Below, one piece after another: positions 30,472 through 52,123 of a stretch of 64,000 nucleotides of DNA. The first letter of the stretch is position 1, and each line of letters opens with the position of its first letter. The notes under the pieces are model-generated. The model made no database searches. It had not been told where the DNA came from and saw only the letters and a program-made list of their open reading frames with translations. The position numbers and the translations under genes are program-made. The stretch comes from Parabacteroides faecalis (lineage in GTDB: Bacteria; Bacteroidota; Bacteroidia; Bacteroidales; Tannerellaceae), in the NCBI RefSeq assembly GCF_022809355.1, contig NZ_JAKZMM010000008.1, forward strand, positions 1 to 64,000. Reading direction: 5' to 3'.

Positions 30472-30677
30472 CTTCCCTCCTTTTGAAGCCTTTCGGCTCC
30501 TCTTGTCGGGAACTGATTTTTCGTGCATCAAAAGACTGCGGAATGAGGGCGATAAGGCAAGAAAACAGACGGAGGAGTTAATGAAATACCCAAATCTTTG
30601 ATTTGCGGAAAGCTGTCGTTCAGTCCTCTGCCTGTTAGCATGGCGGTACTTGACCATTCGCCCGGGCAGTAACTTTG
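30472..30677. ncRNA. Repeated non-coding module, locus A
   Basis: Parts in order: a hairpin near the leftward gene (outer TTCCC/GGGAA at 30473-30477 and 30508-30512; inner AGCC/GGCT at 30487-30490 and 30495-30498, read as a GAAA tetraloop on the minus strand). Next is AATACC (30585) followed by hairpin CAAATC-TTT-GATTTG (30591-30605). A rightward TTG-N17-TAACTTTG (30650-30677) ends it. Transcription direction is unproven. Confidence 0.45.
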
Positions 30678-30764
30678 CAAAGAAAAATGGGCATCGGCAA
30701 GTGGAATAGACACTACAAAACAGGAAAATCATTGATTTTTAGTGCATTTTTCTTTATTTCTTTC

Positions 30765-30793
30765 TTTGATTTAGGATAAAATATATAACTTTG
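30765..30793 (+). promoter_or_regulatory. Promoter of the AAA/DUF4143 ATPase gene
   Basis: TTTG (30765-30768), 17-bp spacer, TAACTTTG (30786-30793), 40 bp before the ATG. A long palindrome follows immediately. Confidence 0.65.
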
Positions 30794-30797
30794 CCTC

Positions 30798-30827
30798 CGA
30801 AAAAGTGTCACAAGTGACAGTTTTTCG
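30798..30827 (+). promoter_or_regulatory. 30-bp palindrome just before a start codon
   Basis: Arms CGAAAAA-g-TGTCAC and GTGACA-g-TTTTTCG around AA, perfect except for one G/G position. It spans the likely transcription start to 7 bp before the ATG at 30834. It could be an operator for a dimeric repressor, or an RNA hairpin hiding the ribosome site. Confidence 0.6.
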
Positions 30828-30833
30828 TAAAAT

Positions 30834-32096
30834 ATGATAGTAAACAGATATAGATACATAGAACAGTTGAGCCGTTCAAAGAACAACGGGCTCATAAAGA
30901 TAATCACAGGATTGCGACGTTCAGGCAAGTCGTTCCTTCTGAAGAAACTCTTTCATCAGCATCTATTGGATGAGGGCGTGAGAGAAGACCATATTCTCGT
31001 CATCGACATGGAGAGTAGGAAGAACAGAGAGTTCAAGAACCCGGACTACCTGTTGGACTGGGTGGAAAAGATGATGATTGACTATGAGACTTATTATATC
31101 ATCATCGACGAGGTGCAGGAGGTGGAAGACTTTGTAGAGGTGCTCTCTTCCTTGTCAGTTACCGAAGGGGCGGATGTGTATGTCACAGGCTCCAACTCGC
31201 GTTTCCTGTCCTCTGACCTGGTGACGGAATTCCGAGGCAGAGGTGACGAGATACATGTGTGGCCACTATCCTTCAAGGAGTTCATGACGGTGTATGATGG
31301 TTCGAAAGAAGACGGTTGGGCTGAATACAGACTGTACGGAGGTTTGCCGCAACTACTTACACAGGTTGGGGATGAGAAGAAGGCTGATTTCCTGCGTCGC
31401 CTTTATCGCACGGTATATCTACGTGACATCTACGAGCGGAACAACATAGAACTGAGACCTGAATTTGAAGAATTGTCGAAGACCGTAGCATCCAGTATAG
31501 GAGCACCTGTCAATGCACTGAATATAGCCAATACGTTCAAGTCCGTAAGCAATGTGCAGAGCATAACCGACAAGACAGTGTCGGCTTATCTGGAATATAT
31601 GCAGGATGCTTTCCTTATCGAAAAATCCGAAAGGTTCGACATCAAAGGACGGAAATACATAGGTTCGTTGTCCAAGTATTATTATCAGGACGTAGGTCTG
31701 AGGAATGCTATTCTGTCGTTCCGTCAGAGCGAGCCGACACATATCATGGAGAACGTCATCTACAATGAGATGCGTATGCGAGGATGGCTCGTGGATGTGG
31801 GTAACGTCTATCATCGAGTGAGGAATACGGAAGGAAAGCAGCAGAGGGTGACATTGGAAGTGGATTTTGTCTGCAACAAAGGGAGCGAGCGGATCTACAT
31901 CCAGTCGGCGTGGCGTATGCCCGATGCAGAAAAGATGGAACAGGAGAAACGGTCGTTGCGTCTTGTAGATGACTCTTTCCGCAAACTGCTGATCGTGGGA
32001 GAACATACCAAGCAGTGGAGCGACGAAAACGGCATACAGATAATGAGTATATATGACTTCCTGCTTGACTGGTCAAGTACTGAGAAACACGGATAA
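30834..32096 (+). CDS. AAA ATPase with DUF4143 domain
   Basis: A 420-residue protein of the AAA_14/DUF4143 family. It has Walker A GLRRSGKSFLL at residues about 26-36, Walker B YYIIIDEVQEVED at about 87-99, a sensor YVTGSNSRFLSS and the arginine-rich EFRGRGDEIHV. A C-terminal DUF4143 part shows nuclease-like residues (LEVDFVCNKGSERIYIQS). Such proteins are common in Bacteroidales and their role is unresolved. The gene stands alone with its own promoter, palindrome and terminator, like a cargo gene. Confidence 0.85.
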   Translation: MIVNRYRYIEQLSRSKNNGLIKIITGLRRSGKSFLLKKLFHQHLLDEGVREDHILVIDMESRKNREFKNPDYLLDWVEKMMIDYETYYIIIDEVQEVEDFVEVLSSLSVTEGADVYVTGSNSRFLSSDLVTEFRGRGDEIHVWPLSFKEFMTVYDGSKEDGWAEYRLYGGLPQLLTQVGDEKKADFLRRLYRTVYLRDIYERNNIELRPEFEELSKTVASSIGAPVNALNIANTFKSVSNVQSITDKTVSAYLEYMQDAFLIEKSERFDIKGRKYIGSLSKYYYQDVGLRNAILSFRQSEPTHIMENVIYNEMRMRGWLVDVGNVYHRVRNTEGKQQRVTLEVDFVCNKGSERIYIQSAWRMPDAEKMEQEKRSLRLVDDSFRKLLIVGEHTKQWSDENGIQIMSIYDFLLDWSSTEKHG

Positions 32097-32140
32097 AAAA
32101 AAGATATGCGCATAGAATATGCGTTAATACATATATGATT

Positions 32141-32181
32141 AAGGGAGGGCCTATCCATCACGGACAAGCCCTCCCTTTCTA
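32141..32181. terminator. Terminator after the AAA/DUF4143 gene
   Basis: Perfect 10-bp stem AAGGGAGGGC/GCCCTCCCTT with a 17-base loop and T-rich ends on both strands. It can serve the rightward ATPase gene and the leftward OmpA-like gene. Confidence 0.75.
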
Positions 32182-32236
32182 AAATTTATCAATGAAAAAA
32201 AAGTTTTAGTGCTCTTGTTCGGAGCTGTATGTCTGG

Positions 32237-33652
32237 CTATAGATACAGCAGGATTCTGGTATGGCGGTTCGCCTCATTGGGCGAGTAATCGTCAATGCCG
32301 CCATCGAAAATCTGAGAGATGGTGCCATTTTCCATACCACGTTTCATCAGTTCCTCTGCAATGAATCTGGCACGGGAACGGCTGAGGTTATCATTGATGG
32401 CTTCACTGCCTGTGGCACTGTCGGCAGCGCCGATGACCTTAACTTTCAAGCCATATTTCTTGGCGATGCGTGCTACTTCGTCGAGATTGACGAGCTGTGA
32501 CCTGTTGAGCAACCTGTCAGTGCCAAGTTCAAAGAAGAAATAGATGGGCGCACCTATGCAAGCCTTTCCTGAGTGGATGAGCGATAGGTAATCGTCTTCC
32601 GGCTCACCTTCAGCATTGCCATATTCTTCTGTACAAGAGGCGGACTCCATGACCTTTGTCTTTTGACCATTACCATACTTGTCTCTCATTCTTGCACGCA
32701 GCGAGTTGAGACCGCTGTAGTCGTTTCGAGGATAGCCATTTGTGACGGAAGAAGCGGCATCGTCAGAAAAGAGGTGGCCGTACTTGTCCAGAAGTCCCTC
32801 GATGGCAAGAATCTTGCGCAGCTGCTCCAGAGTCTGACAATCTCGATCGTGCTGGGCGTGATAGCGGCTGTTGCTGTCAGAAAGGGATGAGGCGTATGCC
32901 GAAAGCCATTCGTTCTGTGCGATGTACGGGCGAGCGTCTATCACTCGCTTCCAGCCAGTCTTGCCGATGCGGACAGAGAGGCCGAGGGATGCGGACAGCA
33001 GATGGTCGCCAAGGCGGTGTGCCTTGCCATAGCCGTCAAAATCCTGCATGGTGGTCATGTTGCCTATCTCTGCCGTAACAGCAATGCGTGGGGAGAGATG
33101 ATACTGCCCCTGTATGCCGTAGGAAATGGCAAAGGGCTTGTGGGCATTCACCTTGTTGTGCAGCATACCCACGCCCACGTATGGAATGACACTCCATCTG
33201 GCAAGAGTGTGTACATCGTCCTTGTAGAGGTTGCCGAGGACATTCCACATGAAATCAGCACGCAGGTACTGGTAGTCCTGCGAGGAGTTGTTGCAGTCGT
33301 TGAACTGCATACCGCCATAGTTCAGACGACCGCCGACGGAAGGTGTGAACCATTTGCCGATCGACACGGAGAATGCCGGTTTCATGCGACCGAATAGGTC
33401 GTTGCATCCGAGCGGTTTGCCGAGGAAGACCGTAGTTCCTCCTGCCGCTTGGACAAACCAGTTGTCCGTCCATGGCGAAGCTACCAATGCCCCTTTCATG
33501 TAGGAAGGTTTAAGCGGACGAAGCATACCGTCTGCCGAAAGTCTGCATACAACGGTGGTGGTGTCCGCCGTGCGGTGATAGTCTTTGGCTTGCGCACCCA
33601 ATGAAAGGGCGAAGCCAAGGGATAGAATAAGTATTTTTCTCATGTTGTTCAA
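32237..33652 (-). CDS. OmpA-family outer-membrane protein
   Basis: This 471-residue protein has a signal peptide (to about AQAK, residue 23). An outer-membrane beta-barrel follows at about residues 50-240 (alternating segments such as FSVSIGKWFTPSVGGRLNYG). A helical linker (245-360) leads to a C-terminal OmpA/MotB peptidoglycan-binding domain (about 365-471, with YGLKVKVIGAADSATGSEA and LSRSRARFIAEELMKRG). It probably anchors a surface or transfer structure to the wall. It follows the mobilisation gene by 45 bp in the same direction, so it may be expressed with it. Confidence 0.85.
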   Translation of the reverse strand: MNNMRKILILSLGFALSLGAQAKDYHRTADTTTVVCRLSADGMLRPLKPSYMKGALVASPWTDNWFVQAAGGTTVFLGKPLGCNDLFGRMKPAFSVSIGKWFTPSVGGRLNYGGMQFNDCNNSSQDYQYLRADFMWNVLGNLYKDDVHTLARWSVIPYVGVGMLHNKVNAHKPFAISYGIQGQYHLSPRIAVTAEIGNMTTMQDFDGYGKAHRLGDHLLSASLGLSVRIGKTGWKRVIDARPYIAQNEWLSAYASSLSDSNSRYHAQHDRDCQTLEQLRKILAIEGLLDKYGHLFSDDAASSVTNGYPRNDYSGLNSLRARMRDKYGNGQKTKVMESASCTEEYGNAEGEPEDDYLSLIHSGKACIGAPIYFFFELGTDRLLNRSQLVNLDEVARIAKKYGLKVKVIGAADSATGSEAINDNLSRSRARFIAEELMKRGMENGTISQIFDGGIDDYSPNEANRHTRILLYL

Positions 33653-33697
33653 TTTAATCTGGTGAATACTATAACAGGTGATACGTGACAGTGCCGC

Positions 33698-35149
33698 TTA
33701 TCGTTTCTTCCTTTTGCCGGAAGAGGGGCGCATCATGCGTGCAGCTTTCATCATGCAACGGCGTGCCCAAGCGCGTTCATCCTCGTCATCGTCACGTCCC
33801 CATTTGAGGTCGGACGAACTGCCGCCACCGCCATGACCTTCGGCAAAGGTGGTGGCATCATCGACGTAGCCGAGGAATAGAAGCGTGGCACAGTACATCA
33901 CCTCCGTTCCATTCTCCGCAAAGGCCTGAAGCAGGGAACCGTCAAACACGTCCTTGCCCTCATTGGAAAGCCGTGCCACACGTTCGGAGAACTCGCTGAC
34001 CATGTTTTCGAGAAGGGCATTTCTGAGAACGGTGTCCGCACCTTGTCGGATAGTATCGGAATATCTGTGTGCCTCCTGCCGCAACTCCTCCGTGCGCTCC
34101 TTCATGGCGGTCATCTCCTCACGCAGGGCATCGAGCTTGCGGTCAGCCTCTGAGAGCTTCTCCTGCTTGTCGTCCAGTTTCGACTGGATAGCGGACAGTT
34201 CCTGCTCCAGCTCTTGGACTTGCTGACGGAGAGCATCAGGATTGTCGTGACCTGCAAGAATCTGCCGATGCAATTCAGCAAGTGCCGCCTCCTTCTCAGC
34301 CTTCTCCTGCAAGAGGTTGTTGACCATTGAGGTGAGTCCTTTTACTCTCCGCTCTGCCAGACGGATGTCCGATTGGAGCGAGGCGAGTGTCCGCTGATGG
34401 GTGGCGACGGACTGCTCAATGGTGGTGCACTGTTCTGACAGCTGGCGGCGGTATTCTTCGGTGGTGCGGTGGCGTGCTCCCGTCTCTGAGACGGAAGTTC
34501 CGCGCTCCATGCCCCAACGCTTGTTGACATCGGCAAATTCGCTGTGCAGGGCTTTCATCCTGGCAGAAAACTCGTACTTGTCCTTTCCGGCGAATATCTG
34601 TTTGTATGCAAACTTGCCGTCCTTGATTGGCAAGAGGGTGCAGTGAACGTGCGGATTGGTTTCGTCCAAGTGTAAGATGAAAGCGACGATGTTCTCCTCA
34701 CCGTATTTGTCCGCAACAAAGCGGTAAACATCCTTTGCCCATTCCTCAATGTCCTTGCATCGGGTTAGATGCGAATTGTCCGCTCCGTGAGTGAGATTCA
34801 CCTTCTGGTCACCGAATGCCAATTCTGTCATACGTTCTCGTGAGCCTCCGAAGATGAAATTGACCACTGTGCGGAAGCGTGGCTCTGCCAGTCCCTCGTT
34901 GGGGTCTTTGATTCCACGGCTCCGCAGGATGTCTGCCATGCGCTCCGGGATGCTTCGGCTCTTGTCTATAGGACAAACCTTGCCGCCCCGAACCTCGAAG
35001 TTGAGCCGCTCACGGCTGCGGTCGTAGTTGCCTGTTGATTCAGCGGATCCCCAACCCTTTTCCGTCCAACGGCGTTGGTGCTCGTTGCTCTGTGCTGTGG
35101 TGATTCCCTTAGATGGTCGGAAATCCATAACCTGTTTTGGTGTTGCCAT
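33698..35149 (-). CDS. MobV-family relaxase (Mob/Pre type)
   Basis: This 483-residue protein nicks DNA at oriT and leads the strand during mobilisation. The signature His motif is clear: HLDETNPHVHCTLLPI near residues 160-175. An N-terminal half follows the Pfam Mob_Pre pattern (NFEVRGGKVCPIDKSRS, FRTVVNFIFGGSRERM). A long coiled coil covers about residues 240-385, followed by a Lys/Arg-rich tail. A candidate oriT lies just upstream at 35215-35278. No coupling protein or mating-pair ATPase is seen in the window. Confidence 0.92.
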   Translation of the reverse strand: MATPKQVMDFRPSKGITTAQSNEHQRRWTEKGWGSAESTGNYDRSRERLNFEVRGGKVCPIDKSRSIPERMADILRSRGIKDPNEGLAEPRFRTVVNFIFGGSRERMTELAFGDQKVNLTHGADNSHLTRCKDIEEWAKDVYRFVADKYGEENIVAFILHLDETNPHVHCTLLPIKDGKFAYKQIFAGKDKYEFSARMKALHSEFADVNKRWGMERGTSVSETGARHRTTEEYRRQLSEQCTTIEQSVATHQRTLASLQSDIRLAERRVKGLTSMVNNLLQEKAEKEAALAELHRQILAGHDNPDALRQQVQELEQELSAIQSKLDDKQEKLSEADRKLDALREEMTAMKERTEELRQEAHRYSDTIRQGADTVLRNALLENMVSEFSERVARLSNEGKDVFDGSLLQAFAENGTEVMYCATLLFLGYVDDATTFAEGHGGGGSSSDLKWGRDDDEDERAWARRCMMKAARMMRPSSGKRKKR

Positions 35150-35214
35150 AACCTATTTCCTTTTATGTGTGTACAACTCTCCTGTCTCCAGCTTGCTGCT
35201 TGTAAGGACAGCCT

Positions 35215-35278
35215 CCCGATGGTCGGAGACCAAGAGGGGTATTAGGCTACCCAAATTCCCTCATTTCCGACCAACGGG
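35215..35278. other. Candidate oriT with nested inverted repeats
   Basis: An outer inverted repeat CCCGATGGTCGGA/TCCGACCAACGGG (12 of 13 paired; 35215-35227 and 35266-35278) encloses a small hairpin GGGTA-TTAGGC-TACCC (35237-35252) and a GAGGG/CCCTC pair. It lies 66 bp upstream of the MobV start, the usual place for oriT of this family. No nick site can be named. Confidence 0.5.
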
Positions 35279-35357
35279 CAAGCCCGATTATTTTACAGCA
35301 ATGGCAGACGTGTAAACACTGTGCCAGTAGAAAAGAAGAAGCGTTGTACGGTGATTA

Positions 35358-36242: not shown

Positions 36243-36321
36243 TTCAATAATCTGTTTGGTGAATACTGTTGTTTGTCGCCAGCTCCATTATACAAAAGGA
36301 ACGGCATGATACAGGTGATAC

Positions 36322-36816
36322 TTAATAGTAGTATATGATGAGCATTTCTGTGTCTTCGAGGAGCATCTTGCGGTCAGCCTTGTTCTTCCACAGCGATATG
36401 ACTATGCGCGAGGGATAGAACAGTGATGCCAGAAGGACAAAGGAGATGGTGACAGCAAGCGTGAACAGATGAGGAGTGAAGACAAACACCACTGCCGCCA
36501 ACGCGGCGATGCAGAAGGGTGTCCGCTCCTCGTGCAGACGCTGTAGCCACCTCTCCACATCCATAAAGACAAAGAATATGGCAAACGCTATGGTGGAAGC
36601 CACTACGCCTATGTCGTTATAGTGTACACAGAGGTAGAGGAAGTGGAACACGTACAGCAGGATGAGCAGCATCAACCGGTAGAGCTTCCTTGCTGTCACA
36701 AGCGCGGTCATGCGCAGATAGAACCGTGTCATAAACTGTCTGCGGCTTCTGTGCAGAATCATCGTCACAAAGAAGAACGCTGACATCAGGATGAGAAACA
36801 GTATCTTACTTGTCAT
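36322..36816 (-). CDS. Membrane protein of unknown function
   Basis: This 164-residue protein has about four membrane helices (near residues 3-21, 46-66, 68-86 and 101-132) and a basic loop RRQFMTRFYLRM. It ends IIYYY. It overlaps the preceding gene by 11 bp in the leftward operon. No family recognised. Confidence 0.55.
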   Translation of the reverse strand: MTSKILFLILMSAFFFVTMILHRSRRQFMTRFYLRMTALVTARKLYRLMLLILLYVFHFLYLCVHYNDIGVVASTIAFAIFFVFMDVERWLQRLHEERTPFCIAALAAVVFVFTPHLFTLAVTISFVLLASLFYPSRIVISLWKNKADRKMLLEDTEMLIIYYY

Positions 36817-37288: not shown

Positions 37289-37297
37289 ATGTAACTT

Positions 37298-43913: not shown

Positions 43914-44405
43914 TTATACACTATTATGAAGATTCACTATGTCCAATCCCTGCCTCTTGGCTTCTCTGACGGTGTAGAACGTGCCGCCCTTGGGATTGCC
44001 ATCGAAGTAGGCTATGAGACGTGAACTGCGGTTGACCATATAGTCGTTGCGCCTCAGAAGGCAGCCATTGTAGTATTGCTCGCTCAATACGACCACGTCA
44101 TCCACGATGCGCAGGATGGCATCATACTTGGCTTGCTCTTCCTTGCTCCACCGGTCAGACTGACCACGGAACGGCACAACGGCTATCACCTGCAAGTCCT
44201 TCAACTCGCATTGCAACGAAAGGGCGGCTTCTGCCGCCAGCAGGTCAAATCCCATTGCCATGCCACAATAGAAATACCGGTAGCCGTCGGCATACGCCTT
44301 GGCTATCTCCGATTTGAGACATTGCTTCAACTCCCTCCGCTTGGCGAAAGGTACGCTGCGGTGTCCGCTGAAGCATACGGACACTGCCTTGTCGTACTTT
44401 GTCAT
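43914..44405 (-). CDS. SLOG-family (DUF1273/YpsA-like) nucleotide-binding protein
   Basis: This 163-residue protein has the SLOG marks: CFSGHRSVPF at residues 9-18, a Rossmann-like YRYFYCGMAMGFDLLAAEAA (the G-x-A-x-G-x-D nucleotide loop) and LIAYFDGNPKGGTFYTVREA. SLOG proteins bind or process nucleotides and several take part in defence. The gene lies 3 bp after a phosphoribosyltransferase gene, which suggests a nucleotide-handling pair. Confidence 0.8.
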   Translation of the reverse strand: MTKYDKAVSVCFSGHRSVPFAKRRELKQCLKSEIAKAYADGYRYFYCGMAMGFDLLAAEAALSLQCELKDLQVIAVVPFRGQSDRWSKEEQAKYDAILRIVDDVVVLSEQYYNGCLLRRNDYMVNRSSRLIAYFDGNPKGGTFYTVREAKRQGLDIVNLHNSV

Positions 44406-44408
44406 ACT

Positions 44409-44975
44409 TTACCTTACTTTATAATGTGTGCGTGCGAGGAACATACCGCCAATAACACATGCCCCGAGCCTTTCGAGTTGGTTGGCATACTTGGCATAGC
44501 TGAGACCCTTGGTTATCACATCGTCAAAGACCAACACCATTTTGTTGTCGAAGAACGGCTCATCAAACTCAACGACATTCGCCTTGCGGACTTCATCCTC
44601 GTTCTTGCGGTTATCGTGGATGGTCTTACGCTCTCCGCATACCCTCACGTGCTCGTAGCCGTTTTCCGCTCCTGTCAATTCACACACCCTGTGGCAGAAA
44701 GCCTTGTAGCGGAGTTCGTTGCTCTCGCTTGTGGATGCTGGAACGGGGGCGAAGACGATGTTCACGCAACCCTTGCCGTAGAGTGTCAGCATATTCTCTG
44801 CGGTGCGCTGCGCCACTTCCTCGTAGGCTCTTCCGTCCTTGAAGTCAAACACTAATTGTCTGTCGGCAATCTCCTTCTCACCCACATTGCGGATGCGTGC
44901 GGGATAGTATTTGCAGAACCAAGTCTGAGGCTTGTCTAACTGCTTTTGGATTTGATAGTCATTCTTGTGTGCCAT
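44409..44975 (-). CDS. ComF-like phosphoribosyltransferase
   Basis: With the ATG at 44975 the protein has 188 residues. The PRPP-binding motif is LVFDDVITKGLSY, and APVPASTSESNELRYKAFC with FCHRVCELTG resembles ComF proteins. The extra 62 codons upstream fall in a region of conserved non-coding structure and look non-protein, so the shorter form is chosen. It is paired with the SLOG gene and preceded by conserved hairpin module B. Confidence 0.8.
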   Translation of the reverse strand: MAHKNDYQIQKQLDKPQTWFCKYYPARIRNVGEKEIADRQLVFDFKDGRAYEEVAQRTAENMLTLYGKGCVNIVFAPVPASTSESNELRYKAFCHRVCELTGAENGYEHVRVCGERKTIHDNRKNEDEVRKANVVEFDEPFFDNKMVLVFDDVITKGLSYAKYANQLERLGACVIGGMFLARTHYKVR

Positions 44976-44990
44976 TGCTCTTATGTTTTT

Positions 44991-45169
44991 TCTTCCCTTA
45001 TTTCGGAGGCTTTTCCTGCCTGCCCAAGGGATATTTTTTGCTTTCCAAGAGTGATGGCGATCAAAAAGCCAAATCGGGAGCGAAAAATACGCTCTGCACG
45101 CAGAGGAAGATTTTTCGGTCAAATGCAATGGACGATTTGGTGTTTGAACAATCGCCAGCATTACCTTTG
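44991..45169. ncRNA. Repeated non-coding module, locus B
   Basis: Hairpin TCCCTT/AAGGGA (44994-44999 and 45026-45031) encloses AGGC/GCCT (45007-45010 and 45018-45021). Next is AATAC (45086) with hairpin CTCTGC-ac-GCAGAG (45092-45105), then GAAGAT. A rightward TACCTTTG lies at 45162-45169, with TTTG at 45136 or 45143. The conserved end motif GTGGGGCGAAGC appears at 45243-45254. The module starts 16 bp before the leftward phosphoribosyltransferase ATG. Confidence 0.5.
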
Positions 45170-45395
45170 CAAAACAATATCCGCAGCGGCAAGGCAGGCG
45201 AAAAGAAATCTGTTATGTAAAAGAGGAAACGGGCGGGATGGCGTGGGGCGAAGCTGTATATGGGGAAGGACGATAGTTGATATGAGGGAAAAAGAGAAAA
45301 TCTTGTAATAGGGAACGACATTGCCTTTTATCAGCATGGAGACAGTCCTACAAGCAGAGAAAACTATTGCCCTAAAAATGAGTTGGATAGTATTT
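45170..45395. other. Non-coding stretch with possible RNA downstream of module B
   Basis: No gene-like frame is visible. It follows the rightward TACCTTTG box and ends its conserved part with GTGGGGCGAAGC (45243-45254), which is also at the end of units in the 48.7-49.8 kb array. The rest shows nothing else recognisable before the partition repeats. Confidence 0.35.
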
Positions 45396-45411
45396 TCTAA
45401 AAGTAGTATCG

Positions 45412-45464
45412 ACTACGAATAGTATAATAGTCGAATAGTTTTTACTACCATACTACGGATAGTA
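45412..45464. repeat. Phased ACTA-N5-TAGT repeats, group 2
   Basis: ACTACGAATAGTA at 45412 and ACTACGGATAGTA at 45452 are full copies; half copies lie at 45428 and 45444. All start points differ by multiples of 8 bp. The group lies just beyond the 3' end of the ribbon-helix-helix gene. Confidence 0.65.
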
Positions 45465-45526
45465 AAGTCTGTTTATAGAAGAGATAGCGGTATCATCGTC
45501 TGTTCGGCGATGATACCGCGCGGCAC

Positions 45527-45805
45527 TCATGTGTCATGCCGCTTTAGGTATTCTGTCATTGCCTCATTGACAATATCACGCAAGGACATCCCTTTCTTGA
45601 TGGCGAGGTACTTCATCCTCGTGTGGATGCTCTTGTTGATAAGGAAATTGCAATGCACCGGCACTTCGGTAGTCTCAGAAACAGACACAGGTGGTGCTGG
45701 TGTAGTTTCTGTGACTATCTGCTCCTTACTCGGCTTCTTTGTGGAAGAAAGGAGTCCGTTGAGACCGCCTTTCATTCCCTCTTTCAACATACTGCTCTTG
45801 CTCAT
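45527..45805 (-). CDS. Ribbon-helix-helix DNA-binding protein, probable partition partner of ParA
   Basis: This 92-residue protein has a disordered N-terminal part (SSTKKPSKEQIVTETTPAPP) and a C-terminal ribbon-helix-helix (VPVHCNFLINKSIHTRMKYL, AIKKGMSLRDIVNEAMTEYL). It has the size and layout of ParG/Omega-type centromere-binding proteins, which use a flexible N terminus to stimulate ParA. It lies 7 bp after parA and is bordered by phased repeats that would suit it as a binding site. The partition role is inference from this arrangement. Confidence 0.75.
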   Translation of the reverse strand: MSKSSMLKEGMKGGLNGLLSSTKKPSKEQIVTETTPAPPVSVSETTEVPVHCNFLINKSIHTRMKYLAIKKGMSLRDIVNEAMTEYLKRHDT

Positions 45806-45812
45806 GGCTATG

Positions 45813-46568
45813 CTATTTTAAGTTTAACACTTCTTTTGCCAAAGACATATAATCACTGGCACCATTGGATTTGGGATTATACTCAAAGATAGTCTTGCCG
45901 TTGATGGGTGCTTCTGCCAAAGCCACATTATCACGGATGACGGTCTTGAAAACCTTCTCGTGAAAACTGTCATTGACGATTTCCCTCACGCTTCGGTTCA
46001 ACGTCTTGCGGCGATCGAACTGGGTGATGACGATGCCGCCCACTTTAAGGTTGGAGTTGAGCCGCTCCTGAACGATGCGGATGATGTCCATCAACTTTGC
46101 CATACCTCTCATGGCAAGGTATTGCGCTTGAACAGGGATGATGATGTAGTCGGCTGCGGTGAGGGCATTCAAGGTCAGCAAGCCCAATGACGGTGGACAG
46201 TCGATGATGATGTAGTCGAAATGCTCTTTGGCGATGGCTTTGGTGATAAGTCCCTTCAAGATAAGCTCCCGTCCCGGCTCGCTGATAAGCTCTAACTCAG
46301 CCGCAGACAGGTCAAGGCATGAGGGTGAGACGGTGATGCCGTTGTGCAACTTGACCAACGGCAAGGTGTACTGTCCACACATTGCGCCATAGACTGTCTG
46401 TTCTTCCTCGATGGACAATCCCAAGGCTTCCGTGAGGTTGGCTTGTCCATCCATGTCAATAGCCAAGACGTTCTTCTTACTCAGTTGCAGAGCTGCCGCA
46501 AGGCTTACTGCGGTCGTACTTTTCCCTACACCACCCTTGTGATTTAATACTGCAATTATCTGTGTCAT
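45813..46568 (-). CDS. parA: ParA-family partition ATPase
   Basis: This 251-residue protein has the deviant Walker A NHKGGVGKSTT at residues 9-19, AIDMDGQANLTEALG (switch I) and YIIIDCPPSLGLLTLNAL (Walker B). It lacks the N-terminal helix-turn-helix of plasmid ParA type Ia, as in short ParA proteins that work with ribbon-helix-helix partners. Together with the next gene and the flanking repeats it forms a partition locus, so the element may be kept as a plasmid-like form. It could also be a maintenance gene of an integrated element. Confidence 0.92.
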   Translation of the reverse strand: MTQIIAVLNHKGGVGKSTTAVSLAAALQLSKKNVLAIDMDGQANLTEALGLSIEEEQTVYGAMCGQYTLPLVKLHNGITVSPSCLDLSAAELELISEPGRELILKGLITKAIAKEHFDYIIIDCPPSLGLLTLNALTAADYIIIPVQAQYLAMRGMAKLMDIIRIVQERLNSNLKVGGIVITQFDRRKTLNRSVREIVNDSFHEKVFKTVIRDNVALAEAPINGKTIFEYNPKSNGASDYMSLAKEVLNLK

Positions 46569-46576
46569 AACATGAT

Positions 46577-46661
46577 ACTACTATTAGTGAATACTACTTT
46601 ACTATTCTACTACTGATAGTACATACTAACCATAGTAAAAGCGGATTTACTACGATTAGTA
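46577..46661. repeat. Phased ACTA-N4/5-TAGT repeats, group 3, upstream of parA
   Basis: Four copies: ACTACTATTAGT (46577), ACTACTGATAGTA (46609), ACTAACCATAGTA (46625) and ACTACGATTAGTA (46649). Spacings are 32, 16 and 24 bp, all multiples of 8. They fill the gap between parA and the SSB gene and could act as centromere and operator. Confidence 0.7.
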
Positions 46662-46687
46662 CGTACTACTCTCAGTTGATACTACCC

Positions 46688-47113
46688 TCAGAAGGGAAGG
46701 TCTTCGCTCTTGTCCTGCGGTGCATCGGCTGGCGGTACGGGAGCCTCGCCCTCTGCCTTGGCTGCCTTGCGTGCCTTTGTTGCAGGTGTGTCGGTTGCAT
46801 CCTTCTTCCCTGCATTGACAAAGGCGATGGAGTCAGCTATGATGCTATGCTGTATGTGGTTCTCTCCGTTGCGGTCTGTCCAAATGGAAGAAGTCAGTGT
46901 GCCTTCCACAAGCACCATACGACCCTTGGTGAGGTATTCAGCCAAACGGATATGGTTCTCCTTGCTGCTCTTCACCCTTACCCAAGTGGTGATTTGCTTG
47001 CCCTTACTGTAGTCGTCCACTGCGATGTCAACAGCCATGAATGTTCCGTGTGTACCTGTGATGACGCGGCAATCCTTTGCTCCGATGCGTCCGATAGTGT
47101 GAGTGTAAATCAT
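46688..47113 (-). CDS. ssb: Single-stranded DNA-binding protein (acidic-tail SSB)
   Basis: This 141-residue SSB has an OB-fold (IGRIGAKDCRVITGTHGTFM, TTWVRVKSSKENHIRLAEYL, GRMVLVEGTLTSSIWTDRNG). A disordered Ala/Pro/Lys-rich linker leads to the acidic tip SEDLPF that recruits repair and replication proteins. SSBs are typical of the leading region of conjugative elements, where they coat incoming DNA. It follows a small excisionase-like gene and precedes parA in the leftward block. Confidence 0.92.
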   Translation of the reverse strand: MIYTHTIGRIGAKDCRVITGTHGTFMAVDIAVDDYSKGKQITTWVRVKSSKENHIRLAEYLTKGRMVLVEGTLTSSIWTDRNGENHIQHSIIADSIAFVNAGKKDATDTPATKARKAAKAEGEAPVPPADAPQDKSEDLPF

Positions 47114-47130
47114 AATGTGAAAATGTTATA

Positions 47131-47167
47131 GTGGCAAGTTGGTTAGACTTGCCGTTACCTTGTTATT
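47131..47167. repeat. 37-bp direct repeat, copy 1
   Basis: It differs at one base from 47536-47572. It contains the hairpin GGCAAG-n9-CTTGCC. The two copies flank the gene at 47167, separating it from its neighbours on each side. Confidence 0.7.
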
Positions 47168-47523
47168 TAAATGACTTTTCTTGTTGATTGAACATAAGCT
47201 ATTGCTTCATTCATAATTTCTGCTCGTGACCTACTCTTGTTATCTTGCATCCACTCATCAATTTCAGATTTGAGGAACATGATACGTTTCCCCTTCTTAT
47301 GGAATGGTATTTGTTTATTGCTTGTCCAACAATAGATTGTGTGTTCAACTGGATGGGTAGGGAGATACTCACTCAATTCGGAAACACTAAGCCATTCCAA
47401 TCCCTTATCGGGCTGAATTTGAGTCATTAGTGTGGAAAACTTTTCTTCTAAAATCTCCAGCTTGTTTATTACTAATGACAATGCTGATGGCAAGTCATTA
47501 AAACTCAATATTTGCTTTTCCAT
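47167..47523 (-). CDS. Excisionase-like helix-turn-helix protein
   Basis: This 118-residue protein has a helical N-terminal part (LSLVINKLEILEEKFSTLMT). A MerR/excisionase-type winged helix follows (LEWLSVSELSEYLPTHPVEH, TIYCWTSNKQIPFHKKGKRI, MFLKSEIDEWM), the Pfam HTH_17 pattern. Such proteins control excision or gene expression of mobile elements. The gene is bracketed by nearly identical 37-bp repeats, as if it had been inserted or duplicated as a unit. No integrase is seen nearby. Confidence 0.8.
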   Translation of the reverse strand: MEKQILSFNDLPSALSLVINKLEILEEKFSTLMTQIQPDKGLEWLSVSELSEYLPTHPVEHTIYCWTSNKQIPFHKKGKRIMFLKSEIDEWMQDNKSRSRAEIMNEAIAYVQSTRKVI

Positions 47524-47535
47524 ATCAATATATGT

Positions 47536-47572
47536 GTGGCAAGTTGGTTAGGCTTGCCGTTACCTTGTTATT
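47536..47572. repeat. 37-bp direct repeat, copy 2
   Basis: Second copy, 405 bp from the first, with one G/A difference that lies in the hairpin loop and leaves the stem intact. Confidence 0.7.
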
Positions 47573-47822
47573 AATATCCTTTCTTCGTCTGCCTTGTATT
47601 GGCGACAAAAGACTTGTTGCTGCCTGTGAGACTGATAGAGCCGCAATTAACAAACTCTCCGTCGGAATAGACTCTGTACTTCTGTCCGCTTACCTCATGC
47701 TTCTGTTTGATGCGCTCTCGCATCCACTTCTTGGCTGCGGTCAATGAGCAAAAGGTCTCGCTCTCCTTGGTCGTCTCGTCATATACGATGCACTGGGTCA
47801 TACATGCTCCTACTTCATCCAT
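47571..47822 (-). CDS. Small hypothetical protein
   Basis: An 83-residue protein with TAAKKWMRERIKQKHEVSGQ and a Lys/Arg-rich end. It overlaps the end of the upstream gene by 13 bp, so the two form an operon. No family recognised. Confidence 0.5.
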   Translation of the reverse strand: MDEVGACMTQCIVYDETTKESETFCSLTAAKKWMRERIKQKHEVSGQKYRVYSDGEFVNCGSISLTGSNKSFVANTRQTKKGY

Positions 47823-48364
47823 GCACCTATACTCGACGTGACATAGTCCAACTGACCGCCAAATATGTCGCTTGGCTCTATGTCGTATTGTCCATCCCTC
47901 ACTTCCTTGTCCTCTCCAAGAAGCGACAAGTTTCCGTCGGCATCCAAACGTGCTGCGTCTATGACGATGTCACGAGGCTCGTCAAAGAGATAACCTGCCA
48001 CGATGGGCTGCTCTCCCTCGAAATGCACCTCAAAGCCTCCGTCCACCTCCGTGCCGTACTTGCGAAGAGCCGCTTTCAGCTCGTCCTGCTCCCGGTGCTG
48101 CAATGCCTGGAGTTGTCCGTGGATAGTGAGGTCTTGCAGTTCTGCCTCTCGTTTGGTGTGGGTTGCCTCGCCGGTCTTGCAGTCGATGTCATACTTGTGG
48201 TAAACCACTGGGATATGGTCTGCCGATGTGACAAGCCATGTGATGTTGTTCACTGAGAAGCCCTGTCTGGTGAGGAACTCCTCGATGTCTGAGCCGAGAA
48301 GGTGGTCGGCTACGTCAAGATACTCGATGCGTGCGTCAGCATCATGCAGGATGATAATCTTCAT
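47810..48364 (-). CDS. Hypothetical protein
   Basis: With the ATG at 48364 it has 184 residues: a beta-rich start (KIIILHDADARIEYLDVADH) and a charged middle (GQLQALQHREQDELKAALRK). It ends LDYVTSSIGAWMK. I do not recognise the family. A start at 48406 would add 14 poorly coding residues. The conserved hairpin of module C is upstream, about 130 bp away. Confidence 0.5.
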   Translation of the reverse strand: MKIIILHDADARIEYLDVADHLLGSDIEEFLTRQGFSVNNITWLVTSADHIPVVYHKYDIDCKTGEATHTKREAELQDLTIHGQLQALQHREQDELKAALRKYGTEVDGGFEVHFEGEQPIVAGYLFDEPRDIVIDAARLDADGNLSLLGEDKEVRDGQYDIEPSDIFGGQLDYVTSSIGAWMK

Positions 48365-48490
48365 TGCCTTTCTATTTTTAGTGATACAAATAAGTTTGTC
48401 GCCCATGTCGCTGGACTTGTTTAACTACGTTGAAGAAACTTACGCTCAGCATAGTGAATAAATTCCCTCTGCGTTCGCTTAACCGTTTCT

Positions 48491-48676
48491 TTCTCTTCCC
48501 TCCTTTCGAGACCTTTCAGCCTGTGGAGGGATATTTTCTGCTCCCACAAGCCGCAAGAAAAGACATAAAGACAAATTATGTGTGAAGAATACTCTTTTCC
48601 GAGGAAAAGGAAGATTGTTCACAGTCACAAGACCTCAAGCAGAATTTGACGATTGTCTCAGACGCGGCTAACTTTG
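48491..48676. ncRNA. Repeated non-coding module, locus C
   Basis: Hairpin TCCCTCC/GGAGGGA (48497-48503 and 48525-48531) has an inner stem that on the minus strand closes a GAAA loop. Next is AATAC (48588) with hairpin CTTTTCC-ga-GGAAAAG (48594-48609), then GAAGAT. A textbook rightward promoter follows: TTTG (48645-48648), 20-bp spacer, TAACTTTG (48669-48676). It directly precedes the structured array. Confidence 0.55.
48645..48676 (+). promoter_or_regulatory. Rightward promoter leading into the structured array
   Basis: TTTG-N20-TAACTTTG is an excellent Bacteroides promoter, yet no protein gene follows on this strand for 4 kb. The product is therefore probably RNA. Confidence 0.6.
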
Positions 48677-48779
48677 CAGGAAATATGCCTACCACTGCGC
48701 TGATTGGAAGAAGATTATTGATATTGGCTGCAAGAGGAATGATGTGTTATATATAAAGAGGTAAGAAGAAAGATTGAAA

Positions 48780-49024
48780 CAGTAAGGGTGGGCAGTGAAG
48801 TGTTTGCAGGTCTGCTGTACCGACATAAAGCGAGTGTGTTGGCTGACCGGGATGCAAGTCATCAAAGCTTCAGCCTTGATAGCTTGTAGCACGGACAGAC
48901 AATTCTCTCGCGTCGGTACTTCGGCATACTGTCAGCTTTGGCTAATAGCAACGTGTTGCCATCAGCCAAGGATGTCTGTATGACGACAGACCATGTAACG
49001 CTTCGCAAAGGCGTGGGGCAAAGC
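48780..49024 (+). ncRNA. Structured unit U1 of a non-coding array
   Basis: Long-range stem GTACCGAC/GTCGGTAC (48817-48824 with 48912-48919) encloses a hairpin ATCAA/TTGAT with a CAAG/CTTG extension. After it stands TTGGCT/AGCCAA (48938-48943 and 48964-48969) enclosing GCAAC/GTTGC (48948-48952 and 48955-48959). It ends GTGGGGCAAAGC. U3 has the same architecture with different paired bases, the expected mark of selected RNA or ssDNA structure. Confidence 0.6.
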
Positions 49025-49083
49025 AGTATAATTTAGAAGTAGATAGTAACGTATATCAGGCAAGAAGAGACAGTTGCGCAACG

Positions 49084-49208
49084 GACAAATCGGGCACTCC
49101 TGTCAGCATGACAAATGTGCCTTGTCCTTGCCGCAGGACACTGAGGCAGATTGGACGTAGCAGACATGTCTGCCACATTCAATATGCCTGAGTGGACAAG
49201 AACTGCCT
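49084..49208 (+). ncRNA. Hairpins between array units U1 and U2
   Basis: One compound hairpin pairs GGACAA with TTGTCC, GGCAC with GTGCC and TGTCA with TGACA (49084-49127). A second region pairs GAGGCAG with CTGCCTC (49143-49208) around the palindrome GCAGACATGTCTGC. No protein frame fits. Confidence 0.45.
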
Positions 49209-49254
49209 CTTGTATAGCAGAAGAGAAATTGTAAAACAGTTGATTAGTGGTAAA

Positions 49255-49440
49255 GGTGGTATGGGTGGGCAGAATGGCATTACACGGACATTGCCGAAGC
49301 CCGATAATGGGACAGCCAGACAGCAATAAAGGCAGTTATCAGAAGTGTCAGTTTCTGATAGTGACATTGTTGGCTGCCTGTCACATGGGATTCGTGCGGT
49401 GTCCGTACAGTAATGCCGTTCTGAAGGTGTGGGGCGAAGC
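49255..49440 (+). ncRNA. Structured unit U2 of the array
   Basis: It shares GTGGGCAG at its start and GTGTGGGGCGAAGC at its end (49427-49440) with the other units. Stems: GGCATTA/TAATGCC, CGGACA/TGTCCG and a hairpin TATCAGAA-n7-TTTCTGATA. The middle differs from U1 and U3, so it is a divergent or shortened member. Confidence 0.45.
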
Positions 49441-49517
49441 GATACAACGCACTTGGACGAAACCACCGCTTATAACAGAAAATATTTTGCAGTCAAAGAG
49501 AAGAAGAATAGTAAAGC

Positions 49518-49766
49518 AGGTGTGGGTGGGTAGTGAAGCTGTCGCAAGATTGACGGTCTGAATATCAAGGCGAGTGGATAGCCAGTAAAGGACACAATTA
49601 TCAGAAGCCTCGGCTTCGGCATCTTGTGGCATAGATGGCAGTCCTCTCGCGTTCAGACCTTGGCATACTGTCTTTCTTGGCTAATAGCGACTTTGTCGCC
49701 ATCAGCCGGGAATATCTGTATGCCAACCATCTTGGTGACGTTTCGCAAATGGTGAGGGACGAAGTG
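49518..49766 (+). ncRNA. Structured unit U3 of the array
   Basis: Same order as U1: stem GGTCTGAA/TTCAGACC (49555-49562 with 49652-49659), CTCTCGCGT, GGCATACTGTC, then TTGGCTAATAGC with GCGAC/GTCGC (49687-49691 and 49695-49699), TCTGTATG and TTTCGCAAA. Both stems differ from U1 by paired changes. It ends GTGAGGGACGAAGT. Confidence 0.6.
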
Positions 49767-49869
49767 GTTAGAATAAAGGAAGACGGCGTTGCCGTTATGG
49801 TTAATAAATGCACATGGTTGTTATTAGAGAAGATTATCACACGCTATAACAGCAGATTGATGTCCCTGA

Positions 49870-49900
49870 GCAAAACAAAAGCGACCCGAAGGTCGCCTTG
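49870..49900 (-). terminator. Terminator of the second SSB gene
   Basis: Stem GCGACC-cgaa-GGTCGC (49881-49896); on the minus strand it is followed by TTTTGTTTTG. It lies 20 bp past the stop of the gene at 49917. Confidence 0.75.
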
Positions 49901-49916
49901 TTATGGAGAGGAAAGG

Positions 49917-50303
49917 CTATTTCTTGCCTTTCTTGGTTGCTGGCTTGGCCGGCTCTTCCGCAGGAGTCTCCTCCTTGTCGGGACACTCGTAGAACTTGGT
50001 TGCAACCATGATGATTCTGGAGTGCTTCACGCCATCCTTGTCTGTCCACTCCTCTGGCTTGAAGAAACCCTCGACGGTGAGCAACGTGCCCTTGGTGAGC
50101 TTGTCGAATGATTCGGTGTGCTCGTTCTTGCGCCATGCCTCCATATTCATGAAAGCCGATACGCGGTTGGTTTCCTCGCCGTTCTTCTCCTGACGGCCTA
50201 CTGCCAATGAGAAGCGTGCTACGCTGGCGTTTGCGAACTGACGGATTTCTGCATCCTTACCTACGAAACCTGAAACTGTGAAGTTGTTCTCGATCTTTTT
50301 CAT
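49917..50303 (-). CDS. ssb: Single-stranded DNA-binding protein (second SSB)
   Basis: This 128-residue SSB has an OB-fold (NFTVSGFVGKDAEIRQFANA, VARFSLAVGRQEKNGEETNR, FMNMEAWRKNEHTESFDKL, GTLLTVEGFFKPEEWTDKDG). It ends in a basic Lys tail (AKPATKKGKK) instead of the acidic tip, so it may not recruit SSB partners. It is a stand-alone gene with its own terminator, lying between two non-coding blocks. Two different SSBs on one element are consistent with protection of transferred single strands. Confidence 0.92.
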   Translation of the reverse strand: MKKIENNFTVSGFVGKDAEIRQFANASVARFSLAVGRQEKNGEETNRVSAFMNMEAWRKNEHTESFDKLTKGTLLTVEGFFKPEEWTDKDGVKHSRIIMVATKFYECPDKEETPAEEPAKPATKKGKK

Positions 50304-50396
50304 TTTGAATTGAATTTAAAAGTGAAACTTAATTTTTACATGCATTCAAAAGCAGGGATGTGGCACCATGTGGGAAGCACCATGAAAATCGTTCGC

Positions 50397-50517
50397 AATA
50401 CTCTTTTTGTCGTTGGCGGTAAGGGAGAAAAAGGAAGATTACGCACTATTTTATTGGTCACAGCGATAGCGGCCACACAAGAAGGAGGAAGTCCTTCGCA
50501 GCATCACGCTACCTTTG
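50397..50517. ncRNA. Repeated non-coding module, locus D
   Basis: AATAC (50397-50401), a weaker hairpin CTTTTT/AAAAAG (50403-50408 and 50428-50433), GGAAGAT, then a rightward TACCTTTG (50510-50517). The first hairpin seen in the other loci was not found here. The gap from AATAC to the -7 box is 113 bp, longer than the 76-85 bp elsewhere. Confidence 0.4.
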
Positions 50518-51072
50518 CATGGTAAAAATAAGTGGCTTTCAAATAGCTCAATTCAGAAAAAGACGGGGCCAAACAATGGAACAAAGGTTGTAAGCAAGGA
50601 GGCAATCCGTATGCAACAGACAGGGGCACTGCTATGGCTGTATGCCTGGAGAAACGAAGCGGGAAATCCGACCTTACAGCTGTATCATCAGAAGAGTGAG
50701 GAGCATGAACACTGATGCACGATGAACGACAAGCCTAAGGGTCAGCTTAGCAATAGAGGCATCAAGCCAAAAGAGGACAGACATCAGAGGATTGGCGATA
50801 GCACTGTCATCATGCTAAGACCAAGTTCTGTGTCCGACAAGGAAGAGTCGCAAAAGACAGACGAGTAAAACCAAAAGGCGAAATGACCATTCCTATAACA
50901 AGGTACAGAGACGCTTAAAACGGCGAAGGGACTTTGGCGACGTATCGCTATACAGGTGTCGAAGCATCGCTTCTATAACAGGACTGGAGCAAGTGAGCAA
51001 ACCGCACAACTTGCTCCCAAGGTATTTCAGTTACAACAGCCATAACCTCATTGGAGGATTGTCCTAAAAGAG
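50518..51072. other. Long non-coding stretch after module D
   Basis: No convincing protein frame is present. Short hairpin-forming pieces occur (for example around GGGTCAGCTTA, a string seen again near 52370). The block TTTTGCAGTCAAAGG at about 51074 recurs near 52226, shortened (TTTTGCAGTCAAAG) near 49486, and inverted near 52430. I cannot say more about its function. Confidence 0.35.
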
Positions 51073-51132
51073 TTTTTGCAGTCAAAGGAAGAAAGAGTCT
51101 GCAAGCCACATAGCCAACAGACTCTCTCCTGA

Positions 51133-51315
51133 TTATTCACAGATGACAACATCATCCTTGTACTCCGTCACTTCCTTGCCGTTGATGAGCTGGACAATGA
51201 CCTCACAACCCAAGTCCTCGACAATCGTTCCCTCTGTCTGACCTCTTCGGGGATAAAGCAAGGTGCAGAAACACCCTACAACGCCGTCCAACTGCTCCAT
51301 GTCTATCGTTGCCAT
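51133..51315 (-). CDS. Small hypothetical protein
   Basis: A 60-residue beta-rich protein (GQTEGTIVEDLGCEVIVQLI, NGKEVTEYKDDVVICE), which may form a small barrel. It follows the 194-residue gene by 15 bp in the same direction, so they are likely an operon. No family recognised. Confidence 0.5.
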   Translation of the reverse strand: MATIDMEQLDGVVGCFCTLLYPRRGQTEGTIVEDLGCEVIVQLINGKEVTEYKDDVVICE

Positions 51316-51330
51316 ATCCGTTCCTCCTTG

Positions 51331-51915
51331 TTAGCCGAATGTGATTGGATTGATGCAGAAATTCGTGTCCTCTGCCTCATACTCGTATTCATTGATGAAG
51401 TCAATCATCTTCTGTTCGCTTCTTCCGTCCTGTGAGACACCAGTCTTCTCACACCACAACTTGATAGCATCACCAAAGGTGGAGTAAGCACCCTCACAAT
51501 CCTCAAAGAGTTCTCCGTATGCAGTGACGTAGCACTCTTCGGGGAAGAAGTCGTTCTCATCGTGCGTATAGAAGATGTCGCAACCTGGCTCAACCTCTCG
51601 CCAACTGATTGAAAGTTCATCGCCAAGTGCCTTGTTCACCTCCTCAAAGAACAAGTCGCATGAAGACCAAGCACTTTCGGTGTCAAAGGACAAGAGGGCA
51701 TAATCGTCTTCCACGTTCTCCTCATACTCTGCCCAATAGATGTGTCCTCTCACCGAGATGCCTTTCTTCTCGTAGTCAATGCCATAGTGTTCTGCCAAGA
51801 GATACAGATACACATTATTACTGTTCACCTCCAACTCTTGGAGTGTGTTCCAAAGGTCTGCCACGGCTTTGCGTGAGCCTGTCACCTTGTACTGAGTGTC
51901 GCAAATGTTAGCCAT
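51331..51915 (-). CDS. Acidic hypothetical protein
   Basis: A 194-residue protein starting MANICDTQYKVTGSRKAVAD, a ferredoxin-like beginning seen in several uncharacterised proteins, and continuing with many acidic and aromatic residues (YTHDENDFFPEECYVTAYGE). Its high acidity recalls DNA-mimic antirestriction proteins, but that is a guess. Hairpin module E lies directly upstream. Confidence 0.5.
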   Translation of the reverse strand: MANICDTQYKVTGSRKAVADLWNTLQELEVNSNNVYLYLLAEHYGIDYEKKGISVRGHIYWAEYEENVEDDYALLSFDTESAWSSCDLFFEEVNKALGDELSISWREVEPGCDIFYTHDENDFFPEECYVTAYGELFEDCEGAYSTFGDAIKLWCEKTGVSQDGRSEQKMIDFINEYEYEAEDTNFCINPITFG

Positions 51916-51930
51916 AAGATAAAATTTTTA

Positions 51931-52123
51931 TTTTCTTCCCTTATGTAGAACCAACTACCATCGGGATTGATTAAAGAATTATGTTGCCCCAAAAGGTGTT
52001 ATGGCTCATCAATGCAAGGTTTTGCCGTCAAATACTACCTCTGCCACAATCAGAGCGTGGAGATTTCACGGACAAACCACAGGCACCGACCTTGCAGGAT
52101 GAACGCCATGACAGGTACCTTTG
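51931..52123. ncRNA. Repeated non-coding module, locus E
   Basis: Hairpin with outer TCCC/GGGA (51937-51940 and 51963-51966) and inner GTAG-n6-CTAC (51945-51958). Next is AATAC (52031) with hairpin CTCTG-n7-CAGAG (52039-52055). A rightward promoter TTG (52092-52094), 21-bp spacer, TACCTTTG (52116-52123) follows. It is 22 bp upstream of the leftward 194-residue gene. Confidence 0.5.

Follow-up and report, generated by a model that had tools for sequence, protein, structure and literature searches.

Recurrent long hairpins as candidate single-stranded-DNA promoters in a mobile element of Parabacteroides faecalis

Why should one non-coding module stand at five separate places beside the leftward genes of a conjugative element in Parabacteroides faecalis? 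The window analysed here, the whole of a 64,000-nucleotide stretch (contig NZ_JAKZMM010000008.1, positions 1 to 64,000), contains five loci, A to E, each with an AATAC motif, a small hairpin and a TAnnTTTGC box. An earlier note, made from the letters of the window, had read them either as promoters that fire on a single strand of DNA entering a recipient, as Frpo does in F-like plasmids, or as a family of structured RNAs. Our modelling of the folded strand leads us to regard A to E as probable Frpo-like single-stranded-DNA promoters belonging to a Bacteroidota family. Among the literature matches listed, such promoters are not described in Bacteroides; Bacteroidales swap conjugative elements in the gut, and the making of protein from the incoming single strand is likewise not described among those matches. 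If the reading is true, the hairpins show which genes are expressed earliest in the recipient, among them SSB, a Shos-like toxin-antitoxin pair and many small unknowns; single-stranded-DNA promoters then come in more than one design and with more than one sigma-factor box, and the hairpins provide a mark by which leading regions and new anti-defence candidates can be searched for.

Predicted long hairpins around the five boxes

Folded with DNA parameters, in thermodynamic predictions that ignore proteins, the + strand forms one long imperfect hairpin of 150–210 nucleotides at each of the five loci (Table 1). The boxes, the AATAC motifs, the stems and the gaps from motif to box (85, 76, 81, 113 and 85 bp) listed in the earlier note were all found in place. 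The small hairpin that it described is real as well, but it is merely the apical tip of the long one. The TAnnTTTGC box is present too, though not as a separate rightward promoter: it lies inside the hairpin and, in single-stranded DNA, is aimed at the leftward gene. In all five folds it sits near the hairpin base on the 3' arm, oriented to the base and the leftward gene. The DNA that immediately follows is paired to the 5' arm, which adjoins that gene (at B, GATATTTTTTGC with GCAAAACAATATC). Folded in this way, the + strand would by itself supply the leftward gene with both a duplex promoter and a template, as in the geometry of Frpo in F. That the arms differ among A to E and yet stay complementary was also borne out, the true assignment of arms beating the other 119 of 120.

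The two strands of the window hold 46 TAnnTTTG boxes. When these are ranked by the pairing of box and flank with upstream DNA, A to E take ranks 1, 3, 4, 5 and 6. The box at rank 2 (48391, +) has a z score of +0.17, and that at rank 7 (13358, +; z −1.9) scores nearly level with D. Against dinucleotide shuffles the five loci have z scores of −2.2 (A), −3.3 (B), −2.9 (C), −2.9 (D) and −8.1 (E). A fixed scan rule (TAnnTT[TC]GC, arm at least 26, down at least 13) passes A to E and no others in the window; when it is tightened, A and B are lost at 28/14 and D also at 30/14. One further box, at 39097 with a 30-nucleotide inverted repeat close by, was set aside as it sits just before a rightward recombinase gene.

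Recurrence of the design and of its apical module

The SSB encoded behind D has relatives in 79 loci, mostly in Bacteroidota. Seventy-eight of these were examined (L051 was left out), 60 of them with distinct upstream DNA, and long-range pairing of this design was present in 56 of the 60. An SSB relative and the hairpin also occur in contigs labelled Roseburia, Firmicutes, Lachnospiraceae or Clostridia (L073, L080, L081, L082 and L040), which may be misbinned Bacteroidota or may reflect an element that crosses phyla.

The scan was extended to 62 non-redundant sources, nearly all Bacteroidota (19 of 81 were dropped, more than half being shared). The hairpin rule was passed by 177 of 639 boxes, as opposed to 34 with shuffled upstream DNA; the 164 expected-strand elements came down to 80 distinct ones after removal of shared 9-mers, and the sets of 177 and 80 still include chance hits. 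With the 48 SSB elements left out the strand bias is 101 antisense to the SSB gene versus 12 sense. In 22 elements the mean pairing with the own arm is −13.8 kcal/mol, compared with −9.6 (standard deviation 0.46) for permuted partners, a value attained in 0 of 20,000 permutations.

An open reading frame (ORF) of at least 80 amino acids follows the hairpin base in 159 of the 177 elements, with a median leader of 47 nucleotides, while one lies to the right of the box in 53 of 177, compared with 325 of 531 random windows. This layout bears on the possibility that the loci are double-stranded control sites, such as EGeRS-like repeats, operators or cruciforms, served by ordinary promoters. The boxes do fit the ordinary −7 consensus, but such sites would sit uneasily with the paucity of ORFs to the right of the box, and with arms that are long, mismatched and different in A to E, yet complementary. 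A precedent exists in pLS20, whose establishment genes stand under long repeats that the authors, in the excerpt of their paper, judged not to be single-stranded-DNA promoters (PMC8708921). We regard control sites of this kind as very unlikely.

Across the 80 elements, the second base of the box (A) is unpaired in 65%, the GC that ends it is paired in 96–99%, and positions +14 to +17 are paired in 89–95%. The frequency of A is 0.81 at +14 and 0.85 at +15, as against 0.39 and 0.36 after 296 hairpin-less boxes. TAnnTTTG itself is the −7 consensus of Bacteroidota. Ordinary boxes on the gene strand are not above chance (13 of 80, random 0.19), and the 900 bp upstream of each of the five first genes in the window are free of them; boxes on the other strand that would transcribe the hairpin are equally unremarkable (11 of 80, random 0.12). 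Read in the mRNA sense, a common GGGAAGARAA string stands between hairpin base and start codon in the leaders at A, B, C and E and is perhaps a ribosome-binding site.

The box counts also bear on the structured RNAs of the earlier note, whether 5' leaders or antisense regulators. Covariation in the stems suits RNA equally with DNA. However, boxes that would transcribe the hairpin are enriched on neither strand, the best conserved sequence is the −7 box near the hairpin base, and the balance of G.T and A.C mismatches is not in favour of the mRNA strand. Rfam gave zero matches at the gathering score over the whole window, which also counts against RNA, and at E up to 1 its single match in 44000–52500 was a miRNA at chance level (46612–46677), outside the elements. 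With the boxes unenriched and Rfam silent at the gathering score, the RNA alternative is disfavoured and in our estimate highly unlikely.

Within the hairpins the tip follows a pattern of its own. AATAC followed by a GGAAGA-like string occurs in 43 of the 80 distinct elements, whereas 200 shuffles average 1.05 and reach 6 at most. A slightly different pattern collects 44 elements in two module types: type 1 (31 elements) consists of AATAC, mostly (T/G)C, a stem and GGAAGATT, and type 2 (13, including E) of AATAC(T/A/G)ACC, a stem and TGGAGATT. In the outer stems of both types, pairing within elements is far above that between elements (0 of 5000), and in the inner stem of type 1 it is also better. 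The distance from module to box is nearly constant, with a median of 50 nucleotides, quartiles of 49 and 51.5 and a range of 38–71 (n = 43). The earlier note had proposed a covariance model and a search of Bacteroidales genomes, and both were carried out. In the alignment of 22 module sequences covariation is present: 88.1% of cells are paired versus 71.5% after shuffling (0 of 500), and the covariation score is 0.419 versus 0.161 (0 of 500), slid versions scoring at most 0.211.

The training set of R1, a covariance model of the apical module alone, consisted of B, C, D and 19 further sequences; the search covered the window, L088–L090 and 18 of the 79 loci, 22 sources in all. All 54 hits lie on the expected strand, 41 of them with E at most 0.01; 12 of the 54 are training sequences. 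In the window R1 finds B, C and D, all training members, and misses A and E, of which E carries the other module type. In the megaplasmid stretches L089 and L090, where a few boxes pass a loose rule, it finds none. L088, a record of Parabacteroides distasonis, is far richer: 17 boxes pass the loose rule (12 on +, 5 on −), and eleven + hairpins were accepted, located on both sides of the MobV gene, nine of them directly before an annotated leftward gene. The box at 37551 and the five on the − strand, four of which are in coding sequence, were set aside. We infer that polymerase, primase or some other factor recognises the conserved module.

Searched with strict filters, R1 was positive in 17 of 237 genomes of the order, the window's own included, and in a set of 296 genomes spread across the phylum it was positive in the window's own genome only. 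Of the 22 loci L094–L115, 18 were counted, several of them near copies (excluded were L114 and L115, which could not be located, and L096 and L112, placed off the model match). TAnnTT[TC]G occurs 30–110 nucleotides after the module in 10 of the 18 (chance 0.069 per 80 nucleotides), and a looser TAnnTT box stands 47–56 nucleotides after it in 15. Folding of nine loci gave energies of −32 to −66 kcal/mol; tyrosine integrases adjoin five of the nine, and a MobA-type relaxase adjoins one. For nine R1 hits with a relaxase within about 12 kb, the hairpin is antisense to the relaxase gene in six and not in three, and for one of the six the relaxase lies on the opposite side. A second apical-module hairpin occurs in the genome of the window, on contig C14 (48435–48487, +), beside a tyrosine integrase and 3.6 kb from a MobA-type relaxase; it would be a candidate single-strand origin.

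The hairpins adjacent to integrases and relaxases look more like single-strand origins (sso), so that the cassette may serve both uses. Alternatively, the hairpins might all be mainly sso, the folded strand recruiting RNA polymerase or primase for a primer and gene expression being secondary. According to the excerpt of Wright 2015 (PMC4595007), RNA polymerase reads a folded sso as a promoter for priming in F and in many rolling-circle plasmids. In other Bacteroidales mobile elements the R1 module, with a TAnnTT-type box equally far away, adjoins integrases and a relaxase. This is in keeping with such a use, and so are the several hairpins elsewhere that have no gene close after the base. Priming alone, though, would need neither a position mostly a short leader upstream of an ORF nor five hairpins in the window's element and about eleven in L088. 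We consider a mainly priming role unlikely; single-stranded-DNA promoters in Bacteroidota might perhaps prime second-strand synthesis in addition.

Transferred strand, gene content and the weighing of the promoter reading

Promoters on a folded single strand would work at entry if the + strand is the one transferred. Upstream of the MobV relaxase gene lies a predicted core of the origin of transfer (oriT), an imperfect hairpin followed by the conserved nonamer TATTAGGCT. In the pMV158 type, cleavage by the relaxase falls a few bases 3' of a hairpin of this kind, and from the pMV158-like layout of hairpin and motif it follows that the + strand would be cut and the right side lead. The + strand is thus the predicted transferred strand, B to E are predicted to lie in the leading region, and their hairpins would form on the strand that enters. 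An exact copy of the nonamer is present in 14 of 18 stretches upstream of MobV, in 13 at the aligned place; L022, L023 and L069 differ and L083 is without it. An alternative inverted repeat (35215–35227 / 35266–35278) encloses the motif.

A MobV relative was detected by tblastn in 24 loci with 10-kb flanks, and in 23 of these, several of which are near copies, it is encoded on the strand of the SSB gene and downstream of it; the exception, L062, has a weak match on the opposite side. Matching by hand from coordinates alone gave, for 31 of 36 loci, a same-strand MobV match located 6 to 22 kb downstream. The relaxase is typically in the lagging region according to the excerpt of Samuel 2024, and this agrees with a leading right side here.

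The simplest account is offered by the Frpo model, in which, as given in the excerpt of PMC9849209, the host polymerase uses the folded strand as a promoter for SSB and other genes, and the promoter is off once the DNA is duplex. The boxes of A to E, judged from folds, covariation and box position, are predicted to lie likewise in a duplex of the folded strand that points toward the downstream gene. The course of events would be as follows. During conjugation the + strand would enter the recipient and each stretch would fold into its long hairpin, the 3' arm holding the −7 box TAnnTTTG in a local duplex, its A often unpaired, and the 5' arm serving as template. Host RNA polymerase would start just beyond the box, proceed to the hairpin base and continue into the gene that has its template 5' of it. 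In this way the leftward genes (SSB, the Shos-like pair and the unknowns) could be made ahead of the second strand. Once the duplex had formed, the hairpin would be gone, the same box would face away from the gene and expression would drop.

Of the earlier Frpo-like interpretation, geometry, covariation, strand bias, gene position and the predicted strand have held up, and the position of A has not, as this locus is outside the predicted leading region. A is left of the relaxase, on the predicted lagging side, and its gene would therefore enter last; its fold is also the weakest of the five, with a base duplex at p = 0.085 against shuffled upstream DNA. The promoter model accounts for A only in part. 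Further results weigh on the same side. The polarity of the oriT was read by eye, and a pMV158-type oriT in a plasmid points toward mobV, the reverse of the arrangement found here; given this difference in gene order, the inference of the strand rests on the hairpin–motif layout alone. Four of the 60 distinct SSB loci (L012, L044, which is cut off, L056 and L076) lacked the design or were not assessable, the boxes were already skewed 377:203 before the hairpin rule was applied, no −33 element stands out in the 80 elements, in which the −7 box is present by virtue of the search rule, and several of the folded hairpins outside the window have no gene close downstream of the base.

The own arm ranks first for just 7 of the 22 elements and among the top three for 16, which we ascribe to the sharing of arms by relatives. 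RNAalifold returned no consensus structure for the mixed alignment of the 22 elements (A1), our guess being that this is because the middles do not align; alignments of sub-families and of the apical part were used in its place. Double changes occur in 7 of 41 pairs in alignment A2 and in 1 of 69 in A3. The excess of G.T over A.C mismatches favours the + strand weakly, 139 versus 115 (p 0.034 by cell, 0.18 by element; 135 versus 82 in an earlier, redundant set). In the register tried, the inner stem of the TGGAGATT type showed no significant pairing (2230 of 5000), and two of five measures for the module are weak (pairs with double changes, 29 of 500 shuffles; pair types, 95 of 500).

Having weighed these points, we still hold the promoter reading to be the probable one. 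A more speculative extension, which we offer tentatively and do not expect to hold in full, is a phylum-specific cassette for transcription of single-stranded DNA: a promoter that exists only in the fold, an apical module 50 nucleotides from the −7 box and a dedicated or repurposed factor, acting as early promoter and second-strand primer in Bacteroidales mobile elements.

Part of the element is shared with other Bacteroidales. Window positions 28000–48000 (20 kb) are 100% identical to OY726012.1 (Phocaeicola massiliensis), and 58% of the same part is identical to NZ_OY725908.1 (Bacteroides finegoldii). The latter record is titled a plasmid, and in it a part of the element adjoins polysaccharide-use and housekeeping-type genes, for which reason it looks chromosomal. 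Copies of C, D and E (and B) stand out in OY726012.1 48,001–162,777 and in NZ_OY725908.1 1–40,000 and 60,000–105,428; other high scorers among the nine best per stretch (e.g. 75030 + and 85129 −) were judged unconvincing.

ArdC-like proteins and cell-wall hydrolases are encoded to the left in the element, and its right portion has leftward genes for unknown proteins, ParA, ParG and SSB (two copies). Six further loci encode, behind a hairpin element, a DUF2958-like protein (17.9 bits, below the Pfam cut-off), as behind A, and the family of the 194-amino-acid unknown behind E follows such a hairpin in 12 sources, the window counted. The ShosT-like and ShosA-like genes adjacent behind B (PADLOC 8.6e-13 and 2.5e-5) constitute a toxin-antitoxin pair, whose expression would be expected at entry under the model. 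Toxin-antitoxin genes are reported in leading regions in the excerpt of PMC11541004, and the pair fits that pattern.

Table 1. Positions of the predicted hairpins, their downstream genes and transfer features in the window
Feature	Position	Strand	Details
Element A	30516..30688	+	predicted single-stranded-DNA hairpin, weakest of five; box TAACTTTG 30670-30677; AATAC 30585
Element B	45029..45182	+	predicted hairpin; box TACCTTTG 45162-45169; apical module 45072-45127
Element C	48523..48695	+	predicted hairpin; box TAACTTTG 48669-48676; apical module 48574-48631
Element D	50327..50533	+	predicted hairpin upstream of SSB; box TACCTTTG 50510-50517; apical module 50383-50446
Element E	51964..52146	+	predicted hairpin, strongest; box TACCTTTG 52116-52123; TGGAGATT-type apical module 52017-52081
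Genes downstream of A	29778..30445	-	99-aa unknown and DUF2958 protein
Genes downstream of B	43914..44975	-	ShosT-like phosphoribosyltransferase 44409-44975; ShosA-like SLOG protein 43914-44405
Genes downstream of C	45527..48406	-	leftward series: unknown (47810-48406), small ORF, HTH_17, SSB, ParA, ParG
Gene downstream of D	49917..50303	-	SSB
Genes downstream of E	51133..51915	-	194-aa unknown and 60-aa ORF
MobV-family relaxase	33698..35149	-	NF041497, E 7e-55
Predicted oriT core	35213..35248	+	imperfect hairpin 35213-35239, then conserved TATTAGGCT 35240-35248; layout by eye against pMV158-type oriT
GGGAAGARAA string	30466-30480, 44986-45000, 48490-48503, 51930-51943		leaders of A, B, C, E

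Comparison with known systems

Among the closest parallels are the Frpo or ssi promoters of F, ColIb-P9 and relatives, reportedly the work of Masai and Arai in 1997 and of Nasim in 2004. There, as would be the case here, the folded transferred strand re-creates a duplex promoter before leading-region genes that include SSB, and several such promoters occur per element. The Frpo/ssi promoters have −35 and −10 boxes, whereas the present hairpins have a TAnnTTTG box; unlike them, these hairpins carry an apical AATAC/GGAAGATT module at a near-fixed spacing of 50 nucleotides and belong to a Bacteroidota element with a MobV relaxase, about eleven of them standing in L088. Hairpin promoters active in single-stranded DNA are also found with the virion RNA polymerase of phage N4, but those are short and read by a phage polymerase, while the hairpins described here are long and have a host-type −7 box.

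By blastn, D matched two Bacteroidota records and no others among 72,556 plasmids, and E had zero matches in E. coli genomes. On the strength of these BLAST searches with D and E, made without a direct comparison with Frpo, the hairpins would not be filed under the known Frpo/ssi sequence family. The search of Samuel 2024 used, in the excerpt, known Frpo/ssi together with the TTGACA/TATAAT consensus, and hairpins such as these are therefore expected to be missed by it.

The sso of rolling-circle plasmids and sso1 of ICEBs1, as presented in the excerpt of PMC4595007, are alike in their orientation-specific activity on single-stranded DNA and, for some, in folds read by RNA polymerase. Such origins serve priming and need no gene, in contrast to the present hairpins, which mostly stand directly before an ORF. 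Finally, the EGeRS of the pLS20 family (PMC8708921, in excerpt) resemble A to E as non-coding sequences repeated before several establishment operons per element. Their authors objected to a single-stranded-DNA promoter that the fold is promoter-less and that the wrong strand is transferred; here, by prediction, both are the opposite, with the −7 box inside the fold and fitting the predicted strand. The two questions raised in the pLS20 study, the promoter in the fold and the strand, are thus answered for the present hairpins in a way that favours promoters on single-stranded DNA.

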